Origin: an uncultured Rhodospirillales bacterium
Lineage (GTDB): Bacteria > Pseudomonadota > Alphaproteobacteria > Acetobacterales > Acetobacteraceae
Length of the DNA: 42,980 nucleotides
Assembly: GCA_903845065.1 (NCBI GenBank)
Contig: CAIMWH010000134.1
Coordinates: 1-42,980 of the forward strand
Direction: 5' to 3'
The stretch's first letter is position 1, and every line of letters begins with the position of its first letter. Positions 24,116 to 28,994 of the stretch are shown one piece after another. The position numbers and the translations under genes are program-made. A model generated the notes under the pieces. It did no database searches, had not been told where the DNA came from, and was given only the letters and a program-made list of their open reading frames with translations.

Positions 24116-24238
24116 AAGCGGTTCTTTTTTGAGAAAAAGAACCAAAAAACTTTTCCACGACGGCTTCGCCCCTCCCACGGGAGAGCGGCGAAGCCATCGG
24201 ACAAAAAGTTTTTGCTTCTTTTTCAAAAAGAAGCGCTT
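24116..24238. repeat. Nested-hairpin repeat, family A, copy 2
   Basis: This 123-bp element has the same layout as copy 1 at 10539: an A/T hairpin at 24121-24142, a central stem pairing 24158-24170 with 24187-24199 (12 of 13), AAAAAACTT/AAGTTTTT arms, and a closing A/T hairpin ending GAAGCGCTT. It separates rlmI from the Hint gene, both on the plus strand. An open frame runs through it into the Hint gene, which would tempt a false N-terminal extension. Confidence 0.85.
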
Positions 24239-24292
24239 CCTTCCCCCCGAAATAAACCCCCCAGTCACCTTCGCCGCCCAAACTCCCCCATC

Positions 24293-26494
24293 ATGGCGGA
24301 TGCGTTTCGGCTTCTCTACAGCGCGCTCGATACCAACGGCACCGTCCAGCTCTGGGCGACCGACGGCACCCCCGCGGGCACCGCCGAACTGACCGCGGTC
24401 AGCAATGACTGGGGAGGCCTCTACGCCTGCCAGATCACCAGCTTCGCCACCGGCGCAATGTTCAGCGGGATCGACGCCGCCGGCCAAACCTCCCTCTGGA
24501 CCACGGACGGCACCGCCGCCGGCACGCGCGAAATCCTCGCCGGCACCGCCTTCGCCGAGGGCCTGAACCCGCAGGGCCTGACCGCGCTGGCCACCGAAGT
24601 GCTGTTCACCGGCACGGACGCCGCCGGCCAAACCGCGCTCTGGACCACCGACGGCACCGATGCCGGCACCCAGGAACTCCTTGCGCTGGATGGCGTCGCC
24701 GCCAGCATCGTCACCCCGCAATCCCTGGTCTCCGGCGGGCTGGCCTATTTCGAGATCGCCGGCCGCCTCATCGTCAGCGACGGCACGCCGGCCGGCACCC
24801 GCATCTGCGCCACCGGGCTGGACAGCGGGGACGCCGGCCCCAGCCTGGCCCCGATCGACGGCGGTATCCTCTTTAGCGCCGCCAGCCAACTCTGGCGCAC
24901 CGACGGCACAGAACCCGGCACCCAGCGCATCACCGACATCACCGCCCGCCACACCACCTTCTCCCCGAAGGACCTCACCGCCGCGGCCGGCTTCGTGCTG
25001 TTTCGCGGCGTCGATGCCACCGGCAACACCCAGCTCTGGCGATCCGACGGCAGCGCCGACGGCACCCTCGCACTGACCGATTTCACCAACGGCCGCGCCG
25101 CCAACGCCCCGCTCGGCATCACCGCCCTCGGCCCCGGCGCCATCTTCTTCGCCACCGCGCCTGACGGCACCCTGCACCTCTGGACCACCGACGGCACCCA
25201 ATCCGGCACCACCGCCATCGCTGCGATCGACTCTGCCCACCCCGCCGCCATCAGCCTGGACGGTGATATCGCGCTCTTCAGCACCGCCACCGGCGGCCTC
25301 TGGCGCACCGACGCAACGCCGGCCGGCACGTTCCATCTCGGCACCGTCACCAGCGGCCCCGGCGTGCCCCTCCCCGGCGGCGGAACCCTCTTCGCCTCCC
25401 CCGGCGCGGACGGCGCCATCATACTGATCGACGGTGACACCCAGGGCGTCCACGTCCTGATCCAGGCCGCCTACGCCAACAATCTCAAGGTATTGACCAA
25501 CGGCCCCCTCGTCCTCGCCCAGTCCGCCCCGCCGCCCTGCTTCCTCCCCGGCACCCGCATCCTCACCGCGGAGGGCGAATGCGCGGTGGAGGCGCTGCGC
25601 TCCGGCATGCGCGTCTACACCGGCTTCGGCGGCTGGCAGGAACTGCGCTGGTGCGGCCGCGGCCAGGCCCGGATCGGAACGGCCCACGATCATCCCGCCC
25701 GCCCCGTCATCATCGCCGCCGGCGCCCTCGGCCCGGGCGTCCCGGCACGAGACCTCGCGGTCACCCAGGGCCACTGCCTGCTCTTTCCCGCCCACCCCGG
25801 CCCCGGCGTGCTGATCCCCGCCGCGCTGCTGGTCAACGGCCACTCCATCCGCCTGCACCCCGGCGAGGGCGACATCACCTACTACCATCTCGGCTTCTCC
25901 GGGCATGACGTGGTGCTCGCCGAAGGCGCCGCCTGCGAGGCCTGGCACGATGACGCCGGCGACATCGCCTTCGACACCCCCCCGCCACCAGGCGTTGGCA
26001 GCGGCCCAACCTGCGCCCCGAAATGCGGCTACGGCCCACAGTCCATCGCCATCTGGCAAGCCCTGCACGATCGCGCCGGCATCGCCCCGCCACCCCTCGC
26101 CGCCGACCCTGGCCTGCATCTCCTCGCCGACGGCCGCCCGGTACTGCCCGACTTCCGCCACGCCAACCGCTACCGCTTCACCCTGCCGCAACGGCCGCTT
26201 GACCTGCGGTTGCTCTCCCGCAGCGCCGTCCCCGCCCAGTCCGGTCTCGGGCCTGACATCCGGCGCCTCGGCGTCGGCGTCCAGTCCATCGCCTTCGCCC
26301 AGCACGGCCTCCTGCACACAATCGCCGAGGACGACCCGGCGCTCGGCGACGGCTTCCACCCCGCCGATCCCGCCTCCGCCCTGCGCTGGACCACCGGCGC
26401 CGCCCACCTCGCCAGCTCCCATCTCCGCCTCGCCCGCGGCCCGTTGCGCATGGAAGTCATCGCCATCGGCCTCGCCGGCTACCCGCCCGAATGA
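24293..26494 (+). CDS. ELWxTDGT-repeat protein with C-terminal Hint domain
   Basis: The 733-residue protein starts at the ATG at 24293 (MADAFRLLYSALDTNG); an open extension to 24212 lies in the repeat and is rejected. Residues about 1-400 contain about eight units of the ELWxTDGT type, for example LWATDGTPAGTAEL, LWTTDGTAAGTREI and LWRTDGTEPGTQRI. A Hint_2-like domain follows: Cys416 in CFLPGTRILT is the splice/cleavage nucleophile position and T491-QG-H494 is the TxxH block. About 180 further residues form a domain seen behind Hint in related proteins. No Sec signal is visible; secretion by a type I system is a guess. It is coupled by ATGA to the small gene at 26491. Confidence 0.88.
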   Translation: MADAFRLLYSALDTNGTVQLWATDGTPAGTAELTAVSNDWGGLYACQITSFATGAMFSGIDAAGQTSLWTTDGTAAGTREILAGTAFAEGLNPQGLTALATEVLFTGTDAAGQTALWTTDGTDAGTQELLALDGVAASIVTPQSLVSGGLAYFEIAGRLIVSDGTPAGTRICATGLDSGDAGPSLAPIDGGILFSAASQLWRTDGTEPGTQRITDITARHTTFSPKDLTAAAGFVLFRGVDATGNTQLWRSDGSADGTLALTDFTNGRAANAPLGITALGPGAIFFATAPDGTLHLWTTDGTQSGTTAIAAIDSAHPAAISLDGDIALFSTATGGLWRTDATPAGTFHLGTVTSGPGVPLPGGGTLFASPGADGAIILIDGDTQGVHVLIQAAYANNLKVLTNGPLVLAQSAPPPCFLPGTRILTAEGECAVEALRSGMRVYTGFGGWQELRWCGRGQARIGTAHDHPARPVIIAAGALGPGVPARDLAVTQGHCLLFPAHPGPGVLIPAALLVNGHSIRLHPGEGDITYYHLGFSGHDVVLAEGAACEAWHDDAGDIAFDTPPPPGVGSGPTCAPKCGYGPQSIAIWQALHDRAGIAPPPLAADPGLHLLADGRPVLPDFRHANRYRFTLPQRPLDLRLLSRSAVPAQSGLGPDIRRLGVGVQSIAFAQHGLLHTIAEDDPALGDGFHPADPASALRWTTGAAHLASSHLRLARGPLRMEVIAIGLAGYPPE

Positions 26495-26910
26495 ACGCCG
26501 CCGGCCATGTTGACCTCATCAGCCCCGATCTCATCGAGGGCTGGCTCTACCTGCCCGCCGCCGCCAAACCCGCCGTCATCGAGGTGTTCCTCGGCCCCCT
26601 GCGCATCGGCAGTTGCCGTGCCGATCGCCCCCGCCAGGACCTCGCAGCCGCCGGCTACGGCGATGGCTGCTGTGCGTTCAGCTTCGTCGTTCCGTTACAT
26701 CAGGCTGTAAAGAATCCTGACAGCCTCCGGTTGCGACTGTCAGGCACACCACTCCATTTGCTCCACGATGCGCAAACCCGGCTTTCCGGCCTTGAAACGC
26801 CCGCCCAACATTTTCGTGAAGTCCGGTCCGTGGCGGACACCAGCCAAACCATCCGCCAGCGGACCGTCCCTCACGCAAAATCAGTGTCTGGATCAGCCGA
26901 GGTGGCGTGA
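26491..26910 (+). CDS. Small protein with GWxxxPxxP...DLxxAGxGDG-type domain
   Basis: This 139-residue protein starts in an ATGA overlap with the Hint gene, so it is translated with it. The first ~70 residues (IEGWLYLPAAAKPAVIEVFL, RADRPRQDLAAAGYGDGCCA) resemble a beta-rich domain of unknown function that often sits next to or within glycosyltransferase and Hint-type proteins in related bacteria. The last ~60 residues are Ser/Thr-rich and lower in GC, with no recognised motif. The end overlaps the convergent dienelactone hydrolase gene by 18 bp. I cannot assign a function. Confidence 0.7.
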   Translation: MNAAGHVDLISPDLIEGWLYLPAAAKPAVIEVFLGPLRIGSCRADRPRQDLAAAGYGDGCCAFSFVVPLHQAVKNPDSLRLRLSGTPLHLLHDAQTRLSGLETPAQHFREVRSVADTSQTIRQRTVPHAKSVSGSAEVA

Positions 26911-27811: not shown

Positions 27812-27978
27812 AGCCGCCTAACCCCCGGGCCGTCACATTTCTTTACACCACCGCCCCGTCCGGCCGCCGGCCGCCGCGCGCGGACACGCAATTGGTGCGT
27901 TTGACCCGCATCTCGGTGTTCGAAATTGTCCCCTTTGCGCCCGGTATCGCCGCCCCGCCCGGCAACGAGGCGCAATGA
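27808..27978 (+). CDS. Possible tiny ORF overlapping DUF4169 stop
   Basis: A 56-codon frame begins with GTG inside GTGA, overlapping the DUF4169 stop, and ends in TGA at 27976-27978. The predicted peptide (ending FEIVPFAPGIAAPPGNEAQ) has no recognised motif. Overlap favours coupled translation, but composition is ambiguous and the strand also holds upstream elements for the PEP-CTERM gene. Low confidence; it may be non-coding. Confidence 0.25.
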   Translation: MKPPNPRAVTFLYTTAPSGRRPPRADTQLVRLTRISVFEIVPFAPGIAAPPGNEAQ

Positions 27979-27992
27979 CCCCGTTAGAGTCA

Positions 27993-28029
27993 GGAAACTT
28001 TACACAGGGCATCGATTAGCCCTGTTTCC
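27993..28029. promoter_or_regulatory. Possible activator-binding dyad upstream of sigma-54 promoter
   Basis: GGAAAC...CAGGGC (27993-28010, interrupted by TTTACA) is mirrored by GCCCTGTTTCC (28019-28029). CTTTACAC at 27998-28005 also occurs at 27841-27848. The location, about 40-75 bp before a sigma-54 site, suits an enhancer-binding activator. The assignment rests on symmetry and position only. Confidence 0.35.
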
Positions 28030-28066
28030 CGTCGACAAGTTCATGATAAACAACGATTGTGTTCTC

Positions 28067-28082
28067 TGGCACGCTGATTGCT
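28067..28082 (+). promoter_or_regulatory. Sigma-54 (RpoN) promoter, -24/-12
   Basis: TGGCACGCTGATTGCT matches the sigma-54 consensus TGGCACG-N4-TTGCW at every fixed position with correct spacing. Transcription would start near 28092, giving a leader of about 75 bases before the PEP-CTERM ATG. Sigma-54 with the PrsK/PrsR two-component system is known to drive PEP-CTERM genes in other proteobacteria, which supports the call. Confidence 0.75.
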
Positions 28083-28167
28083 ATGATGGTAGCAGACGAG
28101 CCGGATGGCCTTTCCAAGAAGCTGGGAAGGCGGCTGGCACGATGAGATTAGGTAAGGGAGTTCGACT

Positions 28168-28941
28168 ATGCGCCTCTTGGAAAAGACTGTTTCCGCTGCC
28201 TCGATGCTGGTCGGATTTGTCATGATCGGGTCCGGCACCGTCAGCGCGACACCGATCATCGCGACCACGACCACCGCCTATAGCTGCTCGGCCGGGTCCT
28301 GCACCTACGCTGCCAGCGTCACATCGCTGACCGACTTCCAGGCCGATTTCAATATCCCGCAGTGGGGCTCGGCTGGCACGCCGTCCGGGCAGACGCTGAC
28401 CGGCATGTCGTTCACCGTGACCGGCAGCTTCCACACCACGGGCTCGGTGACGGCGGGCGCCACTGGCGCGGCCGGCGTGTCAGTGATCACCGATGGCGCG
28501 GTCACGACTGGAACTGCCTTCCCGACCGGGCTTGGCGGGTTCACCGGTTATAACGGCAACAGCCCGACCTCGGTGACCTTCCAGCAGTCTGACGAAGAGA
28601 CAAAGTCTCAGACCGTCGGCACGCTGGCGGCGAACACCACCTTCAGCTCCGTCAACTTCACCAAGGCGTTTGCCTTCACGTCGCCGGTGATCGGGATCGA
28701 CACGGACCTGATCGGCGGCGGTACTTATCTGGTCGAGTTCGGCACCGGCACCTACACCCTGATCGGGACGTCGTCTGGCAACGCTTCGGGCAACGTGATT
28801 ACGAACGACACCCTCGGGATCTCGCTGACCTACACCTACACCCCGACCATCGACACCCCGGAGCCCGCTTCGATGACCCTGCTCGGCGCTGGCCTGATCG
28901 GCCTCGGTGCCATCGCCCGTCGCCGCCGCGCCGCGAAGTAA
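28168..28941 (+). CDS. PEP-CTERM sorting domain protein
   Basis: This 257-residue secreted protein has a signal peptide (to about residue 28, TVSA). The body is Thr/Ser/Gly-rich and beta-prone, resembling 'choice-of-anchor' type surface proteins. The C-terminal tripartite sorting signal is clear: DTPEPASM, a hydrophobic helix TLLGAGLIGLGAIA and RRRRAAK. Exosortase (EpsH/XrtA) is expected to process it and link it to exopolysaccharide export, but no exosortase gene lies in this window. AAGGGAG precedes the ATG. Two cysteines (YSCSAGSCTY) may pair. Confidence 0.93.
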   Translation: MRLLEKTVSAASMLVGFVMIGSGTVSATPIIATTTTAYSCSAGSCTYAASVTSLTDFQADFNIPQWGSAGTPSGQTLTGMSFTVTGSFHTTGSVTAGATGAAGVSVITDGAVTTGTAFPTGLGGFTGYNGNSPTSVTFQQSDEETKSQTVGTLAANTTFSSVNFTKAFAFTSPVIGIDTDLIGGGTYLVEFGTGTYTLIGTSSGNASGNVITNDTLGISLTYTYTPTIDTPEPASMTLLGAGLIGLGAIARRRRAAK

Positions 28942-28966: not shown

Positions 28967-28994
28967 AAACGGCGGCCCTCGGGCCGCCGTTTTT
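28967..28994 (+). terminator. Rho-independent terminator after PEP-CTERM gene
   Basis: AAACGGCGGCCC (28967-28978) and GGGCCGCCGTTT (28981-28992) form a 12-bp perfect stem with a two-base TC gap, followed by a T run to 28994. It lies 25 bp after the stop. It may also serve creA on the other strand, which ends at 29004. Confidence 0.9.

Follow-up and report, generated by a model that had tools for sequence, protein, structure and literature searches.

The window analyzed here, a stretch of 42,980 nucleotides, makes up one contig (C134) of an assembly of 5.9 Mb in 380 contigs, whose contamination is estimated at 4.37%. On its plus strand, at 28168-28941, lies a gene for a PEP-CTERM protein of 257 amino acids, recognized from its ORF and from profile matches of the protein's tail. 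The PEP-CTERM sorting signal (28855-28929, plus strand) scored above the cut-offs of PF07589 (27.2 versus 20.7) and TIGR02595 (18.1 versus 16); it also passed that of TIGR03370, the VPLPA-CTERM profile (27.1 versus 25.35), and the exosortase found in the genome is of type A. By eye, we identified on the same strand a likely ribosome-binding site, AAGGGAG (28154-28160), a likely signal peptide spanning residues 1-27 (28168-28248), and, behind the gene, a terminator-like hairpin with a T run (28969-28994). The body of the protein beyond the tail matched no family above cut-off among the Pfam and NCBIfam profiles, and an AlphaFold prediction from the single sequence was uninformative (mean pLDDT of 32.3). 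No relatives were found in the genome-contig or viral-contig sets; a whole-genome search returned one closer relative (47%, genome G110), on a contig that stops just upstream of the gene, plus weak ones. To judge from its family, the protein presumably has a role in the matrix or envelope. Upstream of the promoter region, at 24212-26494 (plus strand), the window also encodes a protein of 760 residues in which a Hint_2 domain (PF13403) was detected.

An earlier note on this DNA had proposed a full consensus RpoN site about 85 bp before the ATG, and this was borne out. A sigma-54 -24/-12 promoter, TGGCACGCTGATTGCT, is located at 28067-28082 on the plus strand with zero mismatches to the consensus TGGCACGNNNNTTGCW, and its distance to the start codon is exactly 85 nt (28083-28167). 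It is the sole zero-mismatch match within the window, where base composition predicts ∼0.009 such sites (1.25 per genome); with two mismatches allowed, the window holds seven matches, which is chance level (shuffle mean of 7.85). Counting 12 nt after the GC, transcription is predicted to start at 28093 (plus strand). The two repeated words that had been reported further upstream were likewise recovered, as CTTTACAC, which occurs in the window only at 27841 and 27998 (shuffle mean of 0.08). Alignment with relatives showed that each word forms the 3′ end of a 16-nt box, GTCRGNNNNYTTTACA: a proximal box, GTCAGGAAACTTTACA, at 27989-28004 (plus strand, 0 mismatches), and a distal box, GTCACATTTCTTTACA, at 27832-27847 (plus strand, 1 mismatch), with the distal one lying 157 bp further upstream. 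The gap from the proximal box to the TGG of the -24 element is 62 nt.

By their sequence, these boxes match "motif 1" of Haft et al. 2006 (PMC1569441), and the proximal box stands at the published distance. The main text of that paper describes a motif of 17 nt that has TTTACA as its last letters and is sometimes present more than once, then a spacer of 62.8 ± 10.6 nt, then a sigma-54 motif (motif 2), with the start codon on average 71 ± 38.5 nt after motif 2; the window promoter, with its gap of 62 nt and its start codon at 85 nt, falls within these values. Second boxes within the upstream 250 nt are a recurrent feature, with 23 found over 134 boxed promoters compared to 2 in a reversed-sequence control. 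A dyad that the earlier note had pointed out, CAGGGC-N8-GCCCTG, is indeed present at 28005-28024, between the proximal box and the promoter region, but we rejected it as an element common to PrsR promoters because comparable inverted repeats were found at its position in only 7 of 130 boxed promoters, versus 3.7 in shuffles. Elsewhere in the window, at 26706-26721 on the minus strand, there is a perfect PrsR box, GTCAGGATTCTTTACA, contained in a short ORF of the plus strand; a weak sigma-54-like site follows it by ∼82 nt, and by eye no PEP-CTERM gene comes after. This is probably a chance match within coding sequence.

The trans-acting genes were found on other contigs. The absence of an exosortase near the gene had been remarked upon, and the only one above cut-off in the genome, exosortase A (268.9 versus 208), is indeed encoded on another contig, C311; XrtD, the VPLPA partner, stayed below its own cut-off in the genome (99.2 versus 400). 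The prsK and prsR genes, which we had been advised to look for together with the exosortase, are on C311 as well: PrsK (508.1 bits, cut-off of 300), PrsR (637 bits, cut-off of 502.6), and PrsT were each above cut-off, as were a PEP-CTERM-associated outer-membrane protein, an XrtA chain-length determinant, and an EpsB-type sugar transferase. RpoN is encoded on contig C379 (229.9 bits versus a cut-off of 22.8), and both IHF alpha (ihfA, C20) and IHF beta (ihfB, C378) were above cut-off, in addition to three further HU/IHF-like genes. Given the 380 contigs and the contamination estimate, C311 and C134 are only taken to belong to one organism. The PrsK of the genome shares 80% identity with its counterpart from an uncultured Rhodospirillales metagenome-assembled genome, and many of its other near relatives are from Acetobacteraceae. 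We note that an HU/IHF-like gene on contig C307 (20075-20547, minus strand) is directly upstream of a PEP-CTERM gene with a boxed promoter, in the same direction.

The earlier note had called the window gene a single, dispersed target and had advised a promoter scan of all PEP-CTERM genes. With TIGR02595, we detected 48 PEP-CTERM tails above cut-off in the genome; 2 at contig ends without a start were left out, and the remaining 46 genes, three of them with only 66-100 nt of upstream sequence, were scanned for a box and promoter with at most four mismatches in all and a gap of 40-110 nt. The pair was found at 21 of the 46 genes, in 18 cases with at most two mismatches, compared to none in reversed and none in reverse-complemented regions. 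A 22nd target, on contig C199, was first missed because its ORF start had been placed too far upstream; it was added by hand from a strict-pair scan, without an equivalent second look at the controls, and a pair on contig C211 (5 mismatches, gap of 42) was left out of the count. The pair was thus absent from 24 to 25 of the 46 genes, about half. Genome-wide, 16 perfect sigma-54 sites were counted, compared to a single match of the backwards pattern, and strict box/promoter pairs numbered 17 versus 1 in the control; 5 of the 16 perfect sites have no PrsR box. As read from these promoters, some 22 PrsR/sigma-54 promoters before PEP-CTERM genes make up a dispersed regulon. The target is dispersed, as claimed, but "single" is wrong, since the pairs recur.

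Two further loci of this genome deserve mention. At C375:24833-28019, three consecutive PEP-CTERM genes each have their own box and promoter, with a gap of 62. At C326:10459-10474 (minus strand), a glycosyltransferase-like gene is preceded by a perfect sigma-54 site that lacks a PrsR box; the contig also encodes an NtrC-like regulator ∼6 kb away, and the site perhaps belongs to a separate EPS circuit.

We also inspected nine homologues of the window protein. Box and promoter were both present at five (L161 and L163-L166), a perfect sigma-54 site without the PrsR box at one (L167), and neither at the other three (L160, L162, and L168). Outside the PEP-CTERM genes, a perfect box and promoter with a gap of 62 was found on contig C150 (304-1219, L085) before a gene for an OmpR-type response regulator, whose receiver domain is weak (33.7 bits, with a cut-off of 30.2; its relative's scores 25) and, by eye, has no phospho-acceptor aspartate at the usual place. 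The nearest relative of this regulator, in the same genus (G020:C139, L228), has the same box and promoter. As a family-wide feature, PrsR control of this regulator was rejected, since it was seen at 2 of 30 loci and the other 28 had no such promoter; judged from the two promoters, this regulator might add a second tier to the circuit in two species of the genus.

We then compared these promoters with those of other genomes. Among 200 genomes of the family, strict pairs were found in 65 and PrsR in 51; by a hand count from two listings, a strict pair was present in 41 of the 51 PrsR genomes versus 24 of the 149 others, and hence absent from 10 of the 51. That the circuit reaches this lineage, as had been suggested, holds insofar as PrsK, PrsR, and RpoN are present, but it is of a kind already described in 2006, and with PrsR carried by 51 of 200 family genomes its presence in the lineage is not new in kind. 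Two of the three other genomes of the window's genus (G111 and G165) had no PrsR at the threshold used; G165 nevertheless had three strict box/promoter pairs. Among 398 genomes of the phylum, the pattern matched in 115. Many of these matches are due to chance, because a full box was present in only 32 of 90 pairs from phylum loci, and a recognizable PEP-CTERM tail followed 20 of these 32 versus 0 of the 58 others.

For the analysis of spacing, we used 130 boxed pairs, 15 from the genome itself, 83 from the family, and 32 from the phylum, of which 107 precede a recognizable PEP-CTERM tail; four pairs on named contigs (L142, L145, and two at L152) fall outside this set. The 60 family stretches came from the strict-pair listing, with genomes holding several pairs favored. 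The first 39 of the 60 phylum stretches were taken in listing order, with one overlapping duplicate skipped, and the last 21 (four of them from G588) were chosen from other rows after inspection of spacers. As no-box controls, we used 70 pairs in which the first five box letters were at least two off GTCRG; this control is conservative because 6 of the 70 precede PEP-CTERM genes and are probably real.

The gaps of the 130 boxed pairs fell into three classes, 50-54 nt (32 pairs, mean of 51.4), 60-66 nt (87 pairs, mean of 62.3), and 71-75 nt (11 pairs, mean of 73.3), with steps of ∼11 bp between them. The bins of 55-59 and 66-70 nt held 1 of the 130 boxed pairs versus 16 of the 70 no-box pairs (Fisher p = 1.8e-7, although formal p-values for the gap classes are inflated by shared ancestry). 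The same classes were seen with 116 of the 130 spacers that are mutually less than 55% identical. The search pattern for the 130 pairs admitted gaps of 45-75 nt only; in the genome itself, where 40-110 nt were admitted, additional gaps of 83 and 84 were found.

Alignment of the 62-nt class on the -24 element revealed a conserved block in the spacer, AA-N4-TTGAWW, which fits the reverse complement of WATCAANNNNTTR, the sequence that we take to be the IHF consensus. In the window, the IHF-like site is CAAGTTCATGATA at 28036-28048, which matches the reverse complement of WATCAANNNNTTR with 1 mismatch (consensus on the minus strand), and its core is centered 26 nt upstream of the TGG, between the PrsR box and the promoter. 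We scored the IHF-like 13-mer at up to two mismatches in two registers, with the core either 25-27 nt upstream of the TGG or, for sites facing the other way, 10-12 nt upstream. A site at either register was detected in 108 of the 130 promoters (11/15 in the genome itself, 72/83 in the family, and 25/32 in the phylum), compared to spacer-shuffle means of 0.55, 4.2, and 2.9, respectively. Among no-box pairs, it was detected in 5 of 10 from the family, 10 of 58 from the phylum, and both from the genome itself, and these last two precede PEP-CTERM genes. The registers had been fixed on the own-genome and family data and were applied to the phylum set afterwards. There, the site was found at 20 of 22 loci taken in listing order, at 4 of 4 picked later, and at 1 of 6 included automatically, a small and largely alphaproteobacterial subset of which several were seen by eye to have GTTAAC in the middle of the spacer instead; this unevenness indicates that the IHF-like element is not universal. 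In boxed pairs at L298-L302 and L346, from other alphaproteobacteria, we saw by eye gaps of 64-66 or 74 nt and GTTAAC or GTTAAT in the middle of the spacer, in most cases without an IHF-like site at the usual registers, which perhaps represents a variant promoter architecture.

Alternatively, the spacer block could be contacted by something other than IHF (PrsR, HU, and RNA polymerase are examples) or simply reflect AT-richness; we regard this as possible, if rather unlikely. Its letters fit the presumed IHF consensus, and in 200 trials with permuted consensus strings, for which the two best registers were taken each time, 27 of the 130 promoters scored on average and never more than 53, which speaks against plain AT-richness. 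The block occurs in both orientations, with one register for each, as a bend would lead one to expect; from known IHF structures, the two mirrored registers would presumably bend the DNA within a few bp of the same spot. The genome moreover encodes ihfA and ihfB. In favor of some other contact are the three additional HU/IHF-like genes and the occurrence of the block in 108 of 130 promoters only, with 1 of 6 in the mostly alphaproteobacterial rows. Passages of a study that covers IHF-assisted sigma-54 promoters (PMC7962754) also report that a PEP-motif gene, GSU1943, rises about threefold in ihf mutants of Geobacter sulfurreducens. This rise may run against a simple activating role of IHF.

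Taken together, the spacing and the block lead us to propose, with moderate confidence, that PrsR promoters in much of the Proteobacteria are rigid three-part devices, consisting of a PrsR box on one face of the helix, an IHF site in one of two registers, and the -24 element. The box would lie 50-54, 60-66, or 71-75 nt from the -24 element, and in this genome also 83-84 nt from it. The IHF core would lie ∼26 nt upstream in one orientation or ∼11 nt in the other, with the bend at nearly the same place.

A genuine sigma-54 site that answers to a different NtrC-like activator encoded in the genome, and not to PrsR, is improbable. Six more NtrC-like matches, with 137 to 357 bits and below the PrsR cut-off, are encoded on contigs C87 (two), C286, C326, C45, and C185, some of them cut by contig ends, and the five perfect sigma-54 sites without a PrsR box would fit such regulators. 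Against this, the box precedes 21 of 46 PEP-CTERM genes at the same distance, strict pairs in the family concentrate in PrsR genomes, and the box is Haft's motif 1, which the main text of the 2006 paper assigns to PrsR by phylogenetic profile (PMC1569441). A chance sigma-54 match, with the window gene using another promoter, appears highly improbable: composition predicts ∼1.25 perfect matches per genome, but 16 were found compared to 1 in the control, and box, gap, and IHF-like site are all in register at the window promoter. The reading of a lone dispersed target in a lineage without an exosortase system of its own, which the window without exosortase and the single above-cut-off enzyme on C311 might suggest, is hardly tenable with the pair at 21 of 46 PEP-CTERM genes and with exosortase A and PrsK/PrsR/PrsT encoded in the genome.

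What we observed directly is a set of DNA elements that keep a fixed spacing and recur at sister genes, in a genome that also holds the trans-acting genes. On this basis, the window gene is very probably a member of a PEP-CTERM regulon governed by PrsK, PrsR, and RpoN, and its promoter most likely works by the known mechanism. PrsK would phosphorylate PrsR, which would then bind both the proximal (27989-28004) and the distal box (27832-27847). A bend between box and promoter, probably made by IHF at 28036-28048, would follow, and the AAA+ domain of PrsR would then open the sigma-54 holoenzyme sitting at 28067-28082. The resulting single-gene transcript would yield a secreted protein, and exosortase A (C311) would process the tail of this protein, which has the matrix or envelope as its presumed destination.

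This arrangement resembles the system in the main text of Haft et al. 2006 (PMC1569441) in its repeated, TTTACA-ending box, its sigma-54 motif and ∼62-nt spacer, its long intergenic region before a single gene, and the presence of PrsK/PrsR/PrsT and of an exosortase with EPS genes; there, PrsK, PrsR, and PrsT are given as co-occurring proteins, and the circuit is described from across Proteobacteria, including Rhodospirillum rubrum. It differs in that the spacer was given only as 62.8 ± 10.6 nt, whereas the gaps here fall into ∼11-bp classes and an IHF-like element is added; the main text of the 2006 paper makes no mention of IHF or integration host. Experimental support comes from pepA of Aquincola tertiaricarbonis RN12 (PMC9850573): according to passages on it, that gene is rpoN1 dependent and starts behind a -24/-12 site, TGGCAC/CTGCTT. 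Both are PEP-CTERM genes with a -24/-12 site and a predicted upstream enhancer, but the start was mapped in Aquincola and is predicted here, and pepA adjoins prsT, whereas the prs locus is remote from the window gene; in Aquincola, the dependence shown is on rpoN1. As at the IHF-assisted sigma-54 promoters treated in passages of PMC7962754, an IHF-like site lies between enhancer and promoter, here as judged from sequence alone. Unlike at those promoters, where the enhancer-to-promoter distance is usually 100-140 bp, the box here is 50-84 nt from the promoter, and two oppositely oriented IHF registers occur across the promoter family. In the open-licence full-text literature, we found no paper on an IHF-like element in PEP-CTERM promoters. 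As far as our searches reach, the phased spacing and the IHF-like element are new detail of a known kind of promoter, and both are predictions from sequence.

These results replace the lone target by a regulon that comprises some 22 genes for surface proteins in an Acetobacteraceae-like genome, and they sharpen the 2006 description of a box, a loose spacer, and a promoter into an architecture with cheap, sharp predictions. The control logic of PEP-CTERM genes has practical weight because PEP-CTERM proteins are reportedly needed for the flocs of Zoogloea resiniphila in activated sludge, according to passages of a paper that also summarizes the Zoogloea work on PrsK/PrsR (PMC9012009). If the three-part architecture holds, IHF as well as PrsK/PrsR would set the output of PEP-CTERM surface proteins, and in this genus the circuit would also drive an OmpR-type regulator, possibly as a second tier.
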